A stretch of 42,694 bases of DNA from Pelagibacterales bacterium SAG-MED39 (GTDB lineage Bacteria; Pseudomonadota; Alphaproteobacteria; Pelagibacterales; Pelagibacteraceae). The notes beneath the pieces are model-generated. The model saw only the letters and a list, made by a program, of their open reading frames with translations. It made no database searches and had not been told where the DNA came from. The stretch covers positions 1 through 42,694 of the forward strand of contig JACWEI010000008.1 in assembly GCA_014653625.1 (NCBI GenBank), written 5' to 3'. Below are positions 9,554 through 15,772 of the stretch, in pieces (the first letter of the stretch is position 1; the number at the start of each line of letters is the position of its first letter). The position numbers and the translations under genes are program-made.

Positions 9554-10201
9554 ATGATAGAATTACTTAAAACAGTAAAAAAAAAACTAACATCTAAGTA
9601 TCTTAAAAATGATACCCCTAGAAAGCTTTCTAAAATAAATAAAAAATTTAAGCCTAGATTTAAAGCAAGGTTAAGAAAAAATAAACACTTACTATCAAAA
9701 AATATTGATAACTTCTTTGATTGGATTAAAGGTGCAGAACTAGTTGAGTTAAAAGAATGCAACATAAAAGAAGACCCTGTTAGACCAGAATTAGACAATA
9801 TTTTTAGAACTAGCCATGGAAGGAAAATTTTTGGAGTAAAATTTAAAAATGAAATTCATGCGGTAATGTGTTTTGCTTATACAAATGAAATACCAAAGTC
9901 AGTAGATGAACTCGATAGATTAAGTCAAGATGCGTATTTACAAAGTACATTGAGAGGTCAAAATGTAGGTAAAATTGCCATAGCATACACAGTGTGGTCA
10001 AAAAAAAAAGGCGGAGGTAAGTTAATTGTTAAAGAAGTCTTTAAAAAAATTAAAAAATCAAATCATCTTAACAGACTTGTAACATTGTCTCCACTTACAG
10101 ACATGGCTTATAAATTTCATAGTAAAAATGGTGCAAAACTTGTTCAAGTAAATGAAAATACTCAAAATTTTGAATACGAAGTTGAAAAAAATAATTATTA
10201 A
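9554..10201 (+). CDS. malonyl-CoA decarboxylase-like GNAT-fold protein, minimal form
   Basis: 215 residues. The first 50 are very basic. From about residue 90 the order of motifs resembles the catalytic half of malonyl-CoA decarboxylase (MCD): HAVMCFAYTNEIPKSVDEL, AIAYTVWSKKKGGGKLIVKE, RLVTLSPLTDM and KFHSKNGAKLVQVN. In MCD the Ser of TLSP and the His of FHxxNGA are catalytic, and both are kept here. The helical N-terminal domain of full MCD (about 400+ residues) is absent, and the stretch between TLSP and FH is shortened. It may be a GNAT acyltransferase or a minimal decarboxylase. The stop shares TTAA (10198-10201) with the convergent sugar gene. Similarity judged by eye. Confidence 0.6.
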   Translation: MIELLKTVKKKLTSKYLKNDTPRKLSKINKKFKPRFKARLRKNKHLLSKNIDNFFDWIKGAELVELKECNIKEDPVRPELDNIFRTSHGRKIFGVKFKNEIHAVMCFAYTNEIPKSVDELDRLSQDAYLQSTLRGQNVGKIAIAYTVWSKKKGGGKLIVKEVFKKIKKSNHLNRLVTLSPLTDMAYKFHSKNGAKLVQVNENTQNFEYEVEKNNY

Positions 10202-12741
10202 TTCTCTAAATCTTTAATATTTATAAATTTATCTGCAATAGATATATTGTTTTTTTTTATATCATCAAAAAAGTTCCAAGCCAAAACAAGTATACAAGAT
10301 GGTTTTTGTTTAATTTTATTTTTTAAAATAATTGGTATTTTAACTCCGGGTACATATTTGTTATCTTTTAACTTATTATCTTCAATTATATAATCAATTT
10401 GATTGGAAACTCCAAAAAAATTTAATGCTGTAGTTGCTTTTGCGGGTGCTCCATATCCTACCAATATTTTTTCTTTTTTTTTTATTAAATTAATATTTTT
10501 TAAAACATTTTCTCTTATTTTGTAAACTTTTTCAGCAAAATTTTTATAAGTCTTATAATCTTTAATTCCAAACTTTTCCTCTTCATCTAATACCGTTGAT
10601 ACACTTTTATCAACTTTGATTTTTTTATTTTTTGAAATATAAATTCTCAAAGAGCCACCGTGAGTATTAATTTTTTCTACTTTAAAAATTTTTGCCTCAT
10701 ATTTTTTAAAAAAGTTAATTAATGAAGTTAAAGACCAATAATTATAGTGTTCATGATAAATATTATCAAAAGTTAGATCTTTTAGGGTATTCATTAGATA
10801 CTGAACCTCTATGATAATAGTTCCTTTATTACTCAAAAGCTTTATCATGCATTTTGCCATTTCATTCAAATTATCTGAATGAGCAAAAACATTAGAAGCG
10901 AGAATTAAATCTGCATTTTTTTTAATTTTCTTAATATTTTTTTCTGTTAAAAAACCATTAAAAGTTTTTATTTTATTTTTGTTCGCTAATTTTGCTAGGT
11001 TTTTAGCTGGCTCTATTCCTAAAATCTTTTTAAATTTTAAATCTTTAAATGGTTTTAAAGCAATTCCATCGTTACTTCCAACATCTATAATGTAAGATTT
11101 TTTTGACTTTAATTTAAATTCTTTAATATATTTTTTTGATGCTTCAATAAAATGATCTCTAAACTTTTTAGAAGTAGAAGAAGTATAAAGATAATTTGAA
11201 AACATTTTTTTAGGATCTACTGCAACCGATAGTTGGCAGTTATGGCACTTATCACAGTAATTCATTTCTAAAGGATATAGTTCAGTTTTATCAGATTTTT
11301 TATTTAGCAAATTATTTGCTAGAGGTTGATAACCTAAGGAAATTACTCTTTTAAGTTTTGTATTACCACAGGATCTACAATCAAATTTATAACAATTTAA
11401 AAGTAAATCTCTTTCATCCTCATCTACAAAAGTATGTTTAATAGTATGTGTTACACCGTAATTTTCATGCTCTCTTTCACCTCTAACAAGATTTAAAAAT
11501 GTTGTGTCTTTAGTAAAGACCATTGTATGCGCCACGTTAGGTTTTATAATTGAAATTTGTCCCTCATTAACAACTTGAGTAATCTTTGGAGAGTTTGGAT
11601 TTAATATATCTTGAAAAATTTCAATTATTTGTCCTTTTGTAAAAAGACACTTTTGTTCTTGTTGAGGATGATAATGATTAGCTCTTATTGTTCCTTTTTT
11701 TGAGTCAATTAATCCAATCATATTTATAGGTTCAGTAAGCTCATGATTACTAATTTTTCCTCTTTCATCTATAAATTCGTGAGTTCCATCTCTTACGTGT
11801 TCCAAATCTTTTATTAAATCTTGTTTGGACCATTTAAAAATCATCTCTTTTATACTTTCATCTAAACCATATAAAAATTTGAAACCAGTTTTTAAAATTT
11901 TTTCATTTGATAATGAAAAACCTAGATTAGGTACTTCATCATTTGTTTCTTTTAATTCTATTTTTGGATTATGTTTTTTACAAATCTCGGCAACATCTTT
12001 TACAGTAACCGTATCTTTAGTTAAGTTGAATGTTTCTGAAGAAATATTATCCTTCTCCTCCATAAACTTAAAACATCTTGCAACATCTATTAACGGAACT
12101 AAGCTTTTGATTTGTCTACCTCCTGCATAAAGTTTTAACATTCCATTTTGTGAGGTAATTTTAGAAAAAAGATTAGTCATTATATCCAATCTAGTAGTAT
12201 CAGTCGAATACCCGTAAACAGATCCAAGTCTTAAAATTATAAAATTTTTTCCAGAATTTTTTAATTGTTTCTCATTGTATGCTTTAGATTTACCATACGC
12301 TAAAACTGGCAAAGTATCTTCATTTTCTAAGATATTTTTTTTTACATCTTGCATACCCTCATAAACAACATGAGTTGATGGTAGAATAATTTTACAATCA
12401 TCTTTTATCGAATCAATTATGTTCTGAGTGCCTTCAATAGCAACTTCCTCGATTTTTTTTTCATGTTCTGCATTAGCTTCACTCTTTACTCTTGGGACAG
12501 CAGTAATGCCTGCTAGATGATGAACTATATCGGCATCCTCACAATGTTTTTTTATTAAGTCTTTATCTAAAATATCTCCATGAACAAAATTCATATTCCA
12601 ATTTCTTATTTGATTAACTCTTTCTGAAATGAATCTATTATCTATAACTGTAATTTTATCATTCCAGCTGTACCCAGAATATATTTTACAAAGTTCGGTT
12701 CCAATATAACCAAGACCACCTGTTATAACTATTTTTTTCAT
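10198..12741 (-). CDS. three-domain sugar enzyme: SDR epimerase/reductase - cupin - C-methyltransferase
   Basis: 847 residues. Domain 1 (about 1-300) is an extended SDR: GGLGYIG at 8-14, catalytic Tyr149-x3-Lys153 (AYGKSK). Domain 2 (about 305-445) is a cupin like those in sugar 3,5- or 3,4-epimerases/isomerases: RANHYHPQQEQK with His356/His358 and VAHTMVF with His405. Domain 3 (about 450-847) is an NDP-hexose C-methyltransferase of the TylC3/NovU type: zinc Cys455, 458, 496, 499, 502; SAM motif IIDVGSNDGI at 551-560; HEHYNYWSL at 663-671; HGGSLRI at 694-700; GAPAKATTALNFFG near 764-777. All active motifs appear intact. It would make a C-methylated deoxysugar for the cell surface, fed by the nearby dTDP-glucose 4,6-dehydratase. 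The arrangement in one chain is unusual. Confidence 0.88.
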   Translation of the reverse strand: MKKIVITGGLGYIGTELCKIYSGYSWNDKITVIDNRFISERVNQIRNWNMNFVHGDILDKDLIKKHCEDADIVHHLAGITAVPRVKSEANAEHEKKIEEVAIEGTQNIIDSIKDDCKIILPSTHVVYEGMQDVKKNILENEDTLPVLAYGKSKAYNEKQLKNSGKNFIILRLGSVYGYSTDTTRLDIMTNLFSKITSQNGMLKLYAGGRQIKSLVPLIDVARCFKFMEEKDNISSETFNLTKDTVTVKDVAEICKKHNPKIELKETNDEVPNLGFSLSNEKILKTGFKFLYGLDESIKEMIFKWSKQDLIKDLEHVRDGTHEFIDERGKISNHELTEPINMIGLIDSKKGTIRANHYHPQQEQKCLFTKGQIIEIFQDILNPNSPKITQVVNEGQISIIKPNVAHTMVFTKDTTFLNLVRGEREHENYGVTHTIKHTFVDEDERDLLLNCYKFDCRSCGNTKLKRVISLGYQPLANNLLNKKSDKTELYPLEMNYCDKCHNCQLSVAVDPKKMFSNYLYTSSTSKKFRDHFIEASKKYIKEFKLKSKKSYIIDVGSNDGIALKPFKDLKFKKILGIEPAKNLAKLANKNKIKTFNGFLTEKNIKKIKKNADLILASNVFAHSDNLNEMAKCMIKLLSNKGTIIIEVQYLMNTLKDLTFDNIYHEHYNYWSLTSLINFFKKYEAKIFKVEKINTHGGSLRIYISKNKKIKVDKSVSTVLDEEEKFGIKDYKTYKNFAEKVYKIRENVLKNINLIKKKEKILVGYGAPAKATTALNFFGVSNQIDYIIEDNKLKDNKYVPGVKIPIILKNKIKQKPSCILVLAWNFFDDIKKNNISIADKFINIKDLEN

Positions 12742-12821: not shown

Positions 12822-13829
12822 TTATTTTAAATAGAATTTTTCAGAAGTTTTAATTAAATAATCAGCAATATGTTCTGTAGTTAAATATTTTTTAGTATGC
12901 TCTAAAAGATCTTTTCTATAATCATTAATTTCTGGATATTCTTCTAATAATTCTTGGGAATTATATTTTTGCTTAAATATATAAGGCAATGATGAAAAAA
13001 TTCTTTGGAAATTAAGAAACTTTTTTTTATAAATTTTAAATGGATTTTCCTGACTTAGAATCCAAGAAAAATCTTCAAATATTTTAATTAACTTTTCTTT
13101 TGGAAGTTTTGTTAAAGTTTTCTCAGGACATTTTTTTAAATCTAATATCAATGGAATACATCCATTCATTAACATTTCATAGTATCTTACTGCTTCCCAC
13201 CAACCTCCATGTACATAAGTAATACCAAATAAACTATCTTTCCACATATTGTAATAGTCATTTTCTTTTTTATAAATGTAAGTCTTGTATCTATGCGGTA
13301 TTAACGGAGCTAAGATATTTTTTGGATTTAAATTTATATCATTTGTAATTTTCCTTTTTGGAATGGTGACATTTATTGGAAAAACATTTGGTTTTGTTTC
13401 GATTAATTCTCTTTTAAAAAAAATAATCTTTTCATTTTTATTAAAATGTAAATTTGTATTATCTTCACCATCAATTAATATTATCTTACTTTTCGACTTA
13501 ATAGATTGTTCAAAAAAAATGTTTGAACGCGTAAATGAACCATAAATGATATAATCAAAAAAGTTGTTTTCTATTTTTTGTTTAATATCAGTTCTATCAA
13601 TGGAATTGTAATTAGTTAAATTATCATAATAGGTAAATCCGCTACCCCATAATTTTGAAATATCGAAAGATCTTTTATTTATTTCATCTTTGTACATGTA
13701 CCATGCACCCGGGTAATCGACGACATCTACGCCATGATTTTCTCGTAAACCATGAAGTAAACTATCATTAATAATGTCATTTACTGCCTGTGCGTCATCT
13801 TTTAGATGTGTGAGAAAAAGAATTTTCAT
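12822..13829 (-). CDS. putative glycosyltransferase
   Basis: 335 residues, soluble. The N-terminus MKILFLTHLKDDAQAVND starts like a GT-B Rossmann domain. The C-terminal half has YVHGGWWEAVRYYEMLMNGCIPLILDLKKCPE, quoted in part as WWEAVRYYEMLMNGCIPLIL, a pattern seen in GT-B or exostosin-like transferases, where an E in R-x-Y-E-x-L-x-x-G-C-I-P contacts the donor sugar. It sits between the sugar-tailoring fusion and the dTDP-glucose dehydratase, in the same orientation, so a role in surface polysaccharide assembly is likely. Exact family and substrate are not known. Confidence 0.6.
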   Translation of the reverse strand: MKILFLTHLKDDAQAVNDIINDSLLHGLRENHGVDVVDYPGAWYMYKDEINKRSFDISKLWGSGFTYYDNLTNYNSIDRTDIKQKIENNFFDYIIYGSFTRSNIFFEQSIKSKSKIILIDGEDNTNLHFNKNEKIIFFKRELIETKPNVFPINVTIPKRKITNDINLNPKNILAPLIPHRYKTYIYKKENDYYNMWKDSLFGITYVHGGWWEAVRYYEMLMNGCIPLILDLKKCPEKTLTKLPKEKLIKIFEDFSWILSQENPFKIYKKKFLNFQRIFSSLPYIFKQKYNSQELLEEYPEINDYRKDLLEHTKKYLTTEHIADYLIKTSEKFYLK

Positions 13830-14060: not shown

Positions 14061-14137
14061 GGCGGGGTAGCTCAGTTGGTTAGAGCGCGGGACTCATAAG
14101 CCCGAGGTCAGTGGTTCGATCCCACTTCCCGCTACCA
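14061..14137 (+). tRNA. tRNA-Met (CAT), elongator type
   Basis: A full cloverleaf of 77 bases with encoded CCA. Acceptor GGCGGGG pairs with TCCCGCT (wobbles at both ends: G1-U72 and G7-U66), D arm GCTC/GAGC, anticodon loop CTCATAA with anticodon CAT, T arm AGTGG-TTCGATC-CCACT, discriminator A. The D-stem C11-G24 pair argues against the initiator. The anticodon stem CGGGA/GCCCG leaves an A31-G39 mismatch next to the loop. tRNA-Ile2 (CAT modified to lysidine) cannot be excluded from sequence alone, but the acceptor resembles alphaproteobacterial elongator tRNA-Met. Confidence 0.93.
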
Positions 14138-14144
14138 ATATTTA

Positions 14145-14753
14145 TTATTCGAGAATTTTCTTTTTGGCCTTATCAAACTCTTCAGCTGAAATTACACCTG
14201 ACTCTAACAAGCTATTTAATTCTTTTAATTGTTTAACAATATCACCATCTTCAACTTTTTTCTTTTTTGTAATTTTTGGTTTAGTTTCAGTGGTAGAAGA
14301 ATTTGTTGTTGAAGATTTTTTAGTTCCGGTAAATCCTAATTCTTCTAATATCTCTCTTATTTCAGATGAAGTAGCTTTTCTTGATATTTTATAATTTTTG
14401 TTTCCCCATACAATTTTTCTTTTTCTATCAAAAATGTAACATTTTTGTGAAGCATGATTTCTGCAAAGCTGTAATGCTAATGTTGGATCAAACCTACAAC
14501 TTTGACCTCTTGGACAATATGAAAAACCATAATTATTTCCTGATTTAGTAATTGCAAAAAAATCTGGATTTCCTTTTTTGTACTCGGCTGGACGATTTTT
14601 AGCGTCAGTACCAATAGAATTCATCATTAAATATTTTATATATCCGTTAATTACGCTATTTGACAATCTTACTTCACCAGTGCCTGTTGTTGAAAATGAA
14701 TTATTAGTTAAAAGAAAAAAAACAGTTAAAAATAATATAAATTTTTTTTTCAT
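14145..14753 (-). CDS. secreted protein with C-terminal SHOCT domain
   Basis: 202 residues. Signal peptide about 1-21 (MKKKFILFLTVFFLLTNNSF). A central domain (about 30-140) with four Cys at 80, 86, 97 and 105 that could form two disulfides in the periplasm. Then a low-complexity Ser/Thr/Lys linker (about 144-170) and a C-terminal SHOCT-like helix pair (DIVKQLKELNSLLESGVIS then AEEFDKAKKKILE). SHOCT domains are short oligomerisation modules. It follows rfbB on the same strand with the start and stop abutting, so it is probably in that transcript. The biological role is unknown. Confidence 0.7.
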   Translation of the reverse strand: MKKKFILFLTVFFLLTNNSFSTTGTGEVRLSNSVINGYIKYLMMNSIGTDAKNRPAEYKKGNPDFFAITKSGNNYGFSYCPRGQSCRFDPTLALQLCRNHASQKCYIFDRKRKIVWGNKNYKISRKATSSEIREILEELGFTGTKKSSTTNSSTTETKPKITKKKKVEDGDIVKQLKELNSLLESGVISAEEFDKAKKKILE

Positions 14754-15772
14754 TAAGTTTTAAGACCTAAGCGTCGGACTATATCATCTTTATTTACTGA
14801 TTTAAAATATTTTATATTATTTAAATACCACTCAAAAGTTTGTTTTAGACCGGAATTCAAATTTATTTTAGGTTTCCACTTAAGTTTTTTGATAATTTTT
14901 CTACTATTAAGCGCATACCTGACATCGTGACCAGGTCTATCTTTTACAAATTCAATTTTAACATTTTTACCTAATTTAATTTTTGATTTTGCAATTTTGA
15001 TTAATTTTTTCGATATATCTAAATTGATTACATTTTTATTGGATCCGATATTATAAAAATTACCAATTTTTCCTTTTTCAAAAACTTTTATTAAGGCTTC
15101 GCAATGATCTTTTACATATATCCATTCTCTAGAATTTAAACCTTTTCCATAAATAGGAAGTTTCTTATTAGTGATAATATTATAAATTAGTTTTGGAATT
15201 AATTTTTCAGGGTGTTGTTTAGGGCCATAATTATTTGAACAATTAGTTACAATTGCAGGTATTTTATAAGTTCTCACATAAGATGAAACTAAGTGATCAG
15301 AAGATGCTTTAGATGCAGCATAAGGTGAGCTTGGATTATAAGGATAATTTTCTTTTGTTCTTCCAGTTAATATATCACCATAAACTTCATCAGTTGAAAT
15401 ATGAACTAATCTTGATTTTTTATTTTTGACTGAAAATTTTCTAAAAATTTCTAAGATATTAAATACCCCAATTATATTACTTTGAATAAAACTTTCAGGA
15501 CCATCAATTGATCTATCCACATGAGTTTCTGCTGCTAAATTAAAGATACCGATTGGTCTATGTTTATTTATTATTTTAGCTAATTTTCTATTAGCAATGT
15601 CACATTTTATGAACGAATAGTTTTTATTCTTTTTGAATTCTTTTACATTGTAGAAATTTGAGGAATAGGTATTTTTATCTATATTAATTACTTTATATTT
15701 TTTTTCTAAAAGTAACTCTATTAAATTACTTCCAATAAAACCAAGGCCCCCTGTAACGATTACTTTTTTCAT
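14753..15772 (-). CDS. rfbB: dTDP-glucose 4,6-dehydratase
   Basis: 339 residues, the family's usual length. NAD-binding GGLGFIGSNL near the N-terminus, the dehydratase-specific HISTDEVYGD (catalytic Asp-Glu pair), SPYAASKASSDHLV with the Tyr-x3-Lys pair, and NNYGPKQHPEKLIP for nucleotide-sugar binding. It converts dTDP-glucose to dTDP-4-keto-6-deoxyglucose, the branch point for rhamnose and modified deoxysugars. No rmlA, rmlC or rmlD is in the window; the fused sugar-tailoring enzyme 2 kb away (same strand) is the obvious consumer here. Divergent from a GT2 gene with 48 bases between. Confidence 0.93.
   Translation of the reverse strand: MKKVIVTGGLGFIGSNLIELLLEKKYKVINIDKNTYSSNFYNVKEFKKNKNYSFIKCDIANRKLAKIINKHRPIGIFNLAAETHVDRSIDGPESFIQSNIIGVFNILEIFRKFSVKNKKSRLVHISTDEVYGDILTGRTKENYPYNPSSPYAASKASSDHLVSSYVRTYKIPAIVTNCSNNYGPKQHPEKLIPKLIYNIITNKKLPIYGKGLNSREWIYVKDHCEALIKVFEKGKIGNFYNIGSNKNVINLDISKKLIKIAKSKIKLGKNVKIEFVKDRPGHDVRYALNSRKIIKKLKWKPKINLNSGLKQTFEWYLNNIKYFKSVNKDDIVRRLGLKT

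Follow-up and report, generated by a model that had tools for sequence, protein, structure and literature searches.

A conserved SDR, cupin and C-methyltransferase fusion of SAR11 bacteria and viral contigs, a candidate synthase of C-methyl-branched sugars

An extended short-chain dehydrogenase/reductase (SDR), a sugar-nucleotide cupin and a sugar C-methyltransferase of the TylC3/MtmC type are joined on one chain in a protein encoded at positions 10198..12741, on the complementary strand, of contig JACWEI010000008.1 from Pelagibacterales bacterium SAG-MED39. This stretch of 42,694 nucleotides, referred to here as the window, corresponds to contig C62 in a draft genome of 927 kb that is 78% complete. 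The open reading frame (ORF) runs uninterrupted from its ATG to the stop and encodes 847 residues; its domains are recognised by Pfam and, for the cupin, by a structural model, in agreement with a preliminary description of this DNA that had reported three fused sugar-tailoring activities. Each domain is individually of a known kind; the novelty lies in the conservation of the three-domain chain, in its distribution over SAR11 and viral contigs, and in the repeated pairing of an SDR similar to Cj1427 with a C-methyltransferase. No bacterial group of the surface ocean is more abundant than SAR11, yet little is known of its surface glycans, which probably set recognition by phages and grazers. 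The reading that we favour, with a probability slightly below one half (about 0.48), is that the fusion acts on a nucleotide sugar with three activities and produces a C-methyl-branched sugar destined for a surface glycan, which in phages would be a glycan directed to the phage or to the host, through a closed cycle of oxidation and re-reduction at C4. If this is true, one gene would suffice to make a branched sugar, and this gene, common in the family, often beside tRNA genes and recurrent in viral contigs, would account for a piece of the surface chemistry of SAR11.

Domains of the fusion and their closest relatives

The SDR domain comprises residues 1–305 (11827..12741, complementary strand, as for the other domains) and matches the Pfam Epimerase family PF01370 at residues 4–240 with 79.3 bits (cut-off 20.9). 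The three glycines of its GxxGxxG motif (G8, G11 and G14), Asp34, Ser122, Tyr149 and Lys153 are kept in all 52 aligned fusions, and Thr123 in 51 of them. An aspartate that closes the second strand is the rule for enzymes that take NAD over NADP, and Asp34, in this place, suggests that NAD would be the cofactor here. The AlphaFold model of the whole fusion, obtained with 52 fusion sequences, is confident, with a predicted local distance difference test (pLDDT) score of 88.8 and a predicted template modelling score of 0.71. The closest solved structure is that of Cj1427, a GDP-heptose C4-dehydrogenase, whether the domain is compared by sequence (phmmer against PDB, 1.4e-23; runner-up 3.3e-14), by profile (6vo6, 4.7e-30 and 108 bits; runner-up 66.7 bits) or by structure, where the Foldseek E is 1.5e-24 for Cj1427, against 2.6e-20 for GalE and 8e-19 for RmlB. 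The likeness to enzymes of the noviose and mycarose type, proposed in the preliminary description, was borne out for the C-methyltransferase but not for the SDR, which is nearer to a C4-dehydrogenase, nor for the cupin, which is not RmlC-like by sequence.

In a tree of 27 SDR sequences, the fusion SDRs, Cj1427 with its SAR11 orthologue, three SDRs of a group designated cluster 24 and the SDR of an SDR-methyltransferase protein from Leisingera form one group (support 91/91), outside of which fall RmlB, Gmd, GalE and Fcl; within this group the fusion SDRs make up a clade of their own on a long branch. Cj1427 is a stand-alone protein, and the fusion SDR is only 26–27% identical to it in structural alignment. 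The SAR11 orthologue of Cj1427 (48% identity; L228, 1267-2202) is likewise a stand-alone protein, and its genome, G042, also carries the fusion and an hddA homologue. Since such an orthologue exists in a fusion-bearing genome, the fusion SDR is assigned to a different subfamily; the orthologue and the hddA homologue also indicate that SAR11 may be capable of making sugars derived from GDP-heptose.

The cupin domain (residues 310–445; 11407..11814), taken alone, scores below the cut-off of every Pfam family, the best being PF14667 with 19.1 bits against 28.7. Modelled alone with 33 sequences (pLDDT 87.1), it is a clear nucleotide-sugar cupin, with a best Z score of 13.5 and a best Foldseek E of 1.2e-7. 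Its HxH...E...H pattern is formed by H356, H358 and H405, present in 52/52 fusions, and E362, present in 50/52; in most members the motif reads RANHxH...E/Q...H. A recognisable RmlC signature was not found in this domain, so that the earlier statement that all key motifs are intact holds for the SDR and the methyltransferase, while the cupin offers only the pattern just given. PF14667, which is the CapF-type family, matches all 34 cupin members at E ≤0.5, with the window member under the cut-off, and CapF is also the best match of the cupin profile in PDB, although a weak one (E 0.0074). On the other hand, PF00908, the RmlC family, matches only 2 of the 34 members (best E 0.02), and the window member scores 15.0 bits against a cut-off of 27; the sequence thus gives no support to a cupin of the RmlC type. 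When folds are compared, the 3,4-ketoisomerases 7n67 and 5tpu score Z 13.5 and 13.1, CapF 11.8 and Cj1430/MlghB 11.6–11.7; these proteins and RmlC lie within about 2 Z units, and the fold does not separate an epimerase from a ketoisomerase. Overall the domain resembles CapF and the 3,4-ketoisomerases more than RmlC, and it may act at C3. CapF (Cap5F, from the Staphylococcus aureus capsule) has its SDR and cupin in the same order as the fusion but has no methyltransferase; it is described as epimerising C3 and reducing C4 (PMC3699295). CapF was absent among the PDB matches listed for the fusion SDR at phmmer E ≤0.01 and profile E ≤1e-10.

The C-methyltransferase domain (residues 454–836; 10234..11382) is covered by Methyltransf_13 (455–514; 59.9 bits, cut-off 31.3), by Methyltransf_23, which is the S-adenosylmethionine (SAM) domain (540–682; 51.2 bits, cut-off 27), and by Methyltransf_14 (693–836; 138.4 bits, cut-off 23.5). 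The closest relative of this METHYLTRANSFERASE part of the fusion is MtmC (1.3e-57; Foldseek 5.5e-38), followed by KijD1 and TcaB9. It shares with these TylC3-type 3-C-methyltransferases the zinc-binding N-terminal part, the SAM domain, the C-terminal C-methyltransferase domain and five active-site residues: Tyr517, His621, Tyr662, Glu664 and His665, invariant in 52/52 fusions, align with Y76, H181, Y222, E224 and H225 of TcaB9, which are mutated residues named in PDB titles (the printed TcaB9 chain runs two residues ahead of the numbering in the titles). The four cysteines of the N-terminal part (Cys455, Cys458, Cys496 and Cys499) are kept in 44–50 of the 52. In contrast to this C-terminal part of an 847-residue chain, MtmC, TcaB9 and KijD1 are stand-alone proteins of 416–426 residues that belong to antibiotic pathways. 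By analogy with them, the domain would methylate C3 of a nucleoside diphosphate (NDP) 4-keto sugar.

Conservation in SAR11 and rearrangement in viral contigs

When 397 Pelagibacteraceae genomes were searched at E ≤1e-10, some match was obtained in 297, in many of them to the methyltransferase only; at least 150 of the 397 carry the fusion, with at least 67% identity and a match that reaches all three domains, some being cut by contig ends. GTDB contigs were scanned as well; of the 326 relatives obtained, the top 80 were kept as genome loci, and in every one of them the three domains lie in a single ORF. The labels of 76 of these 80 orthologues are Pelagibacteraceae, Pelagibacter or Pelagibacterales, and the rest are metagenome-assembled genomes (MAGs) labelled, as binned, SAR86, Patescibacteria, Proteobacteria and Nanoarchaeota. 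The C-methyltransferase, which is of the C3 type, the glycan context and the SAR11 host are points on which the preliminary description is supported, and the search for the same domain order that it had proposed shows this order to be conserved both in these genomes and among viruses, where 44 of the 62 distinct loci have the whole fusion. A chance fusion or an assembly chimera is ruled out by the single ORF in all 80 genome loci and in these 44 viral ones. In a sample of the class (385 genomes, E ≤1e-30, at most two candidates per genome) more than one domain was found in one place only in the genome of the window itself, and the same holds for multi-domain matches in a sample of the phylum searched with the SDR-cupin part (398 genomes, E ≤1e-15, at most four candidates per genome).

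Among viruses, a full-length fusion with 54% identity is encoded in the 642-kb uncultured phage record LR756502.1 (L054, 14992-17595), and IMG/VR contributed 61 loci, 43 with the full fusion and 18 without it; the count of 44/62 distinct loci was reached after merging nine duplicate contigs (53/71 before merging). The loci without the whole fusion show several kinds of splitting. An SDR-cupin protein is directly followed by a separate methyltransferase in L201 and by a remote methyltransferase (27–28% identity) in L196, L199 and L208, with a gap of about 0.7 kb in L199. In L193 and L212 the SDR is separate and the cupin and methyltransferase are fused, with about 1 kb between the two genes in L212; the split in L193 is possibly a frameshift, given that its relative L192 has the gene whole. 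Seven loci (L202, L204-L207, L209 and L213) have the methyltransferase without its fusion partners, each time preceded by a cluster-24 SDR, and SDRs of this cluster precede stand-alone C-methyltransferases in eight viral loci altogether; L205 and L206 appear to be one virus. Only one piece, mostly at a contig end, is present in L200, L203, L210, L211 and L215. Because the split pieces recombine and yet in most cases remain adjacent, with their order unchanged, the parts of the fusion probably serve one pathway. The preliminary description had regarded split orthologues that work on unrelated substrates as a refutation; split versions do exist in viral contigs, yet their arrangement backs a common pathway.

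The fetched flanks of the 43 viral loci with the full fusion contain Gmd-like genes in 14 cases, Fcl-like genes in 11 and DegT-like genes in 10; the RmlB label also takes in GalE-like epimerases in viral flanks (as in L172), and for the 4,6-dehydratases the viral count is used for Gmd only. Heptose genes are near two of the 43, where gmhA-like, transaldolase (over the cut-off), hddA-like and rfaE-II-like genes accompany the fusion (L169, 2419-11086; L172, 2420-11086). Likewise, gmhA-, transaldolase- and hddA-like genes lie beside the pair of cluster-24 SDR and methyltransferase in L205 and L206 (7100-13527) and L213 (7109-14185), and in the SAR11 locus L128 the gene immediately ahead of the fusion is one of the transaldolase cluster. 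Gene content suggests a heptose as the sugar at these loci, and the viral cassettes make a phage-made C-methyl heptose possible.

A tree of the fusions (FastTree, midpoint root) was built with 91 rows, namely 90 sequences at <88% identity drawn from 129, plus the window. In this tree, 55 genome sequences (Pelagibacterales, including the window, and one Proteobacteria MAG) stand apart from 33 viral sequences and three from MAGs (L075, L076 and L107), and a recent transfer of the fusion into SAR11 is not seen among the 91 rows. The MAG contigs L107 and L075, labelled Nanoarchaeota and Patescibacteria, cluster with the viral sequences and are possibly mis-binned phage DNA.

Partial counterparts of this architecture occur elsewhere. 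The Leisingera protein (L053) also joins an SDR of the Cj1427 group to a C-methyltransferase, but it has 780 residues and no cupin; a Klosneuvirus protein of 743 residues, apparently also an SDR-methyltransferase, aligns with the fusion over 871 columns with 22% identity. The same set of activities is gathered in one cluster on a Desulfolutivibrio plasmid (L052), as rfbF, rfbG, cupin, C-methyltransferase and SDR; there, in contrast, the genes are separate, the route is a CDP route with a 4,6-dehydratase, and the cupin, annotated as RmlC-type, is unlike that of the fusion (hhalign of the fusion cupin alignment against it detected nothing, with a probability of 0.5%). In the microalga Prymnesium parvum, the RmlC/D fusion is described as a nucleotide-sugar protein that unites an epimerase of the cupin type with an SDR, but it belongs to the dTDP/UDP-rhamnose pathway and has no methyltransferase (PMC6556577). 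For virenose, an in silico study presupposes that a 4,6-dehydratase acts ahead of C3 methylation (PMC3539893), and a cluster of ddhA, ddhB and a 3-C-methyltransferase is reported in Sinorhizobium (PMC4053727). Among the hits listed in a literature search that covers few subscription papers, none describes the three-domain fusion in its title or the opening of its abstract.

Proposed reaction cycle and alternative explanations

In the proposed cycle, the Cj1427-like SDR would use NAD to oxidise C4 of an ordinary, non-dehydrated NDP-sugar; the cupin would then deprotonate the carbon beside the 4-keto group and reset C3, either by epimerisation, as in CapF, or by a 3,4-keto shift; the MtmC/TcaB9-type domain would move the methyl group of SAM to C3; and the SDR would finally give the hydride back to C4. 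The full chain would need neither a 4,6-dehydratase nor a separate ketoreductase, and channelling would hold the unstable 4-keto intermediate on one protein. This closed cycle is favoured because of the kinship with Cj1427, the same chemical order of oxidation, cupin and reduction, and the lack of a fixed 4,6-dehydratase. An enzyme that we take to be GDP-mannose 3,5-epimerase offers a precedent for closed redox chemistry. It is described as carrying out four reactions at one active site, namely an oxidation, two epimerisations and a reduction (PMC7949155). As for Cj1427, it is reported to oxidise C4 of the fully hydroxylated GDP-manno-heptose, to be isolated with tightly bound NADH and to act ahead of a cupin that epimerises C3/C5 and of a reductase for C4 (PMC10680097), an order of dehydrogenase, cupin and reductase that the fusion would share.

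The lack of a fixed 4,6-dehydratase partner was observed in 24 fusion-bearing draft genomes, 23 of which are at least 90% complete. RmlB is over the cut-off in 14 of them, RfbG (CDP-glucose 4,6-dehydratase) also in 14, and Gmd in nine, with six more at 369–399 bits against a cut-off of 415. In four genomes (G228, G232, G290 and G042) none of the three was found over its cut-off. In G232, G290 and G042, ten additional SDRs all score under the cut-offs for 4,6-dehydratases, and another six places with PF01370, in the first two of these genomes, are covered only by the three family searches. G228, at 92% completeness, encodes the fusion and one other PF01370 protein, of 324 residues, which matches only general SDR families in Pfam, looks NDUFA9-like and has near-copies in G232 and G290. 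Matches to PF02719 coincide with the PF01370 places except for one in G228, a protein of 236 residues with the look of a classical SDR, and no recognisable sugar SDR besides the fusion was found in this genome. Given that RmlA is present in 12/24 genomes, RmlB in 14/24 and an RmlB-like gene in 0/80 genome flanks (fetched, up to 6 kb per side), a dTDP route as the sole supply is rejected as a general rule, and the 14/24 for RfbG likewise speaks against a CDP route as the sole supply.

In the genome of the window, one stand-alone C-methyltransferase lies beside RmlA, an SDR and RmlC on contig C23, and another beside an RfbF-like protein and RfbG on contig C12. Since RmlA, RmlB and RmlC are spread over C23 and the window, and the dTDP and CDP clusters have methyltransferases of their own, elimination leaves a third sugar, distinct from the products of these clusters, as the one that the fusion probably serves. 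As a general substrate GDP-heptose was rejected, because hddA homologues are present in only 6 of 25 fusion genomes.

Several points weigh against the closed cycle. The direction of the SDR reaction is unreadable from sequence; in addition, the tree group of Cj1427 and the fusion SDRs lies below the starred level and several of its branches are long. The few hddA homologues just mentioned, one of them weak, do not fit a heptose as the general substrate. Draft genomes may miss hypervariable glycan islands, which assemble badly, and G228 and the three other genomes are no proof of a lack of dehydratase; at least one 4,6-dehydratase is present in 20 of the 24, counting the six Gmd near the cut-off, and Gmd-like genes are found near 14 of the 43 viral fusions. 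The characterised relatives of the methyltransferase act on dTDP 4-keto-deoxysugars, in part according to their PDB titles. Finally, the SDR-cupin pair of CapF works as an epimerase and reductase (PMC3699295).

The 4,6-dehydratases of these 20 genomes, the Gmd-like genes near viral fusions, the closeness to MtmC, KijD1 and TcaB9 and the activity of CapF, together with the rfbB gene 2 kb from the fusion in the window, speak for a classic branched-deoxysugar enzyme, as proposed in the preliminary description, in which case RmlB, Gmd or RfbG would supply a 4-keto-6-deoxy sugar, the cupin would epimerise it, the methyltransferase would methylate C3 and the SDR would be the final 4-ketoreductase. 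We consider this explanation quite possible but less probable than the closed cycle: no single dehydratase family is common to all fusion genomes and in four none of the three was over the cut-off, the additional SDRs of G232, G290 and G042 are below the cut-offs too, linkage to RmlB is absent in the 80 flanks, the fusion SDR is nearer to a C4-dehydrogenase, and in the genome of the window separate methyltransferases already belong to the dTDP and CDP clusters.

The possibility that the cycle is open was also considered, i.e., that after oxidation of C4 the SDR depends on an external acceptor for its reset, and that the C-methyl 4-keto product passes to a separate reductase or is transferred. 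Cj1427, which belongs to the same structural class as the fusion SDR, is described as a ping-pong enzyme reset by 2-oxoglutarate (PMC10680097). However, the recurrent neighbour upstream of the fusion in SAR11 is a glycosyltransferase of family 17 (GT17; 42/80), Fcl-type reductase genes are found in 0/80 genome flanks and 11/43 viral flanks, and G228 has no other recognisable sugar SDR, all of which makes an open cycle improbable. It is more improbable still that the cupin is a 3,4-ketoisomerase or a mere binding domain, with the methyl group placed on a different carbon or added to a 3-keto sugar: the fold scores of the ketoisomerases, their catalytic-site histidines 49 and 51 (from PDB titles), which are comparable to the HxH of the fusion, and the absent RmlC-type match would fit, but CapF is the best profile match and CapF and Cj1430/MlghB are close in fold.

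If the closed cycle is correct, the fusion could be the founder of a class of self-contained sugar C-methylating synthases, common to SAR11 and large phages, which would oxidise, epimerise, C-methylate and re-reduce a common NDP-sugar (a heptose in some phages) with recycled NAD, bypassing the 4,6-dehydratase with which known pathways to C-methyl sugars begin, for surface or virion glycans; this wider proposal is tentative, its chances being clearly short of even. The fusion would then be a candidate one-pot biocatalyst for C-methyl sugars, and the pairing of a Cj1427-like SDR with a C-methyltransferase, fused or neighbouring, would serve as a general prediction for unassigned glycan clusters.

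Genomic neighbourhood of the fusion

The preliminary description linked the fusion to rfbB, a dTDP-glucose 4,6-dehydratase gene at 14753..15772 on the complementary strand (410.7 bits, cut-off 365.1). This link is not conserved: besides the flanks without an RmlB-like gene, a gene of the rfbB cluster occurs in only 3 of 20 wider regions around the fusion, and RmlA and RmlC are on another contig in the genome of the window. A divergent GT17-type gene is the next gene upstream of the fusion in 42 of the 80 genome loci (78 have an upstream ORF), and in 5 of the 43 viral loci a GT17 gene directly precedes the fusion on the same strand. Genes for tRNA-Val and tRNA-Asp lie within 1.5 kb of the fusion in 51/80 genome loci, and 25/80 are without a tRNA gene that near.

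In the window, the neighbour of the fusion is a gene for a protein of 335 residues (12822..13829, complementary strand) with no Pfam or NCBIfam match, a glycosyltransferase by guess only, which also adjoins the fusion in genome G160 (L056). The small glycan island adjoins a tRNA-Met gene (14061..14137, forward strand), and between this and rfbB a protein of 202 residues with a SHOCT tail is encoded at 14145-14753. A family 2 glycosyltransferase gene (PF00535; 15821..16729, forward strand) is a further neighbour in the island. The GC content of the fusion, the 335-residue gene, rfbB and this glycosyltransferase gene is 23–26%, compared with 28.7% for the whole window.

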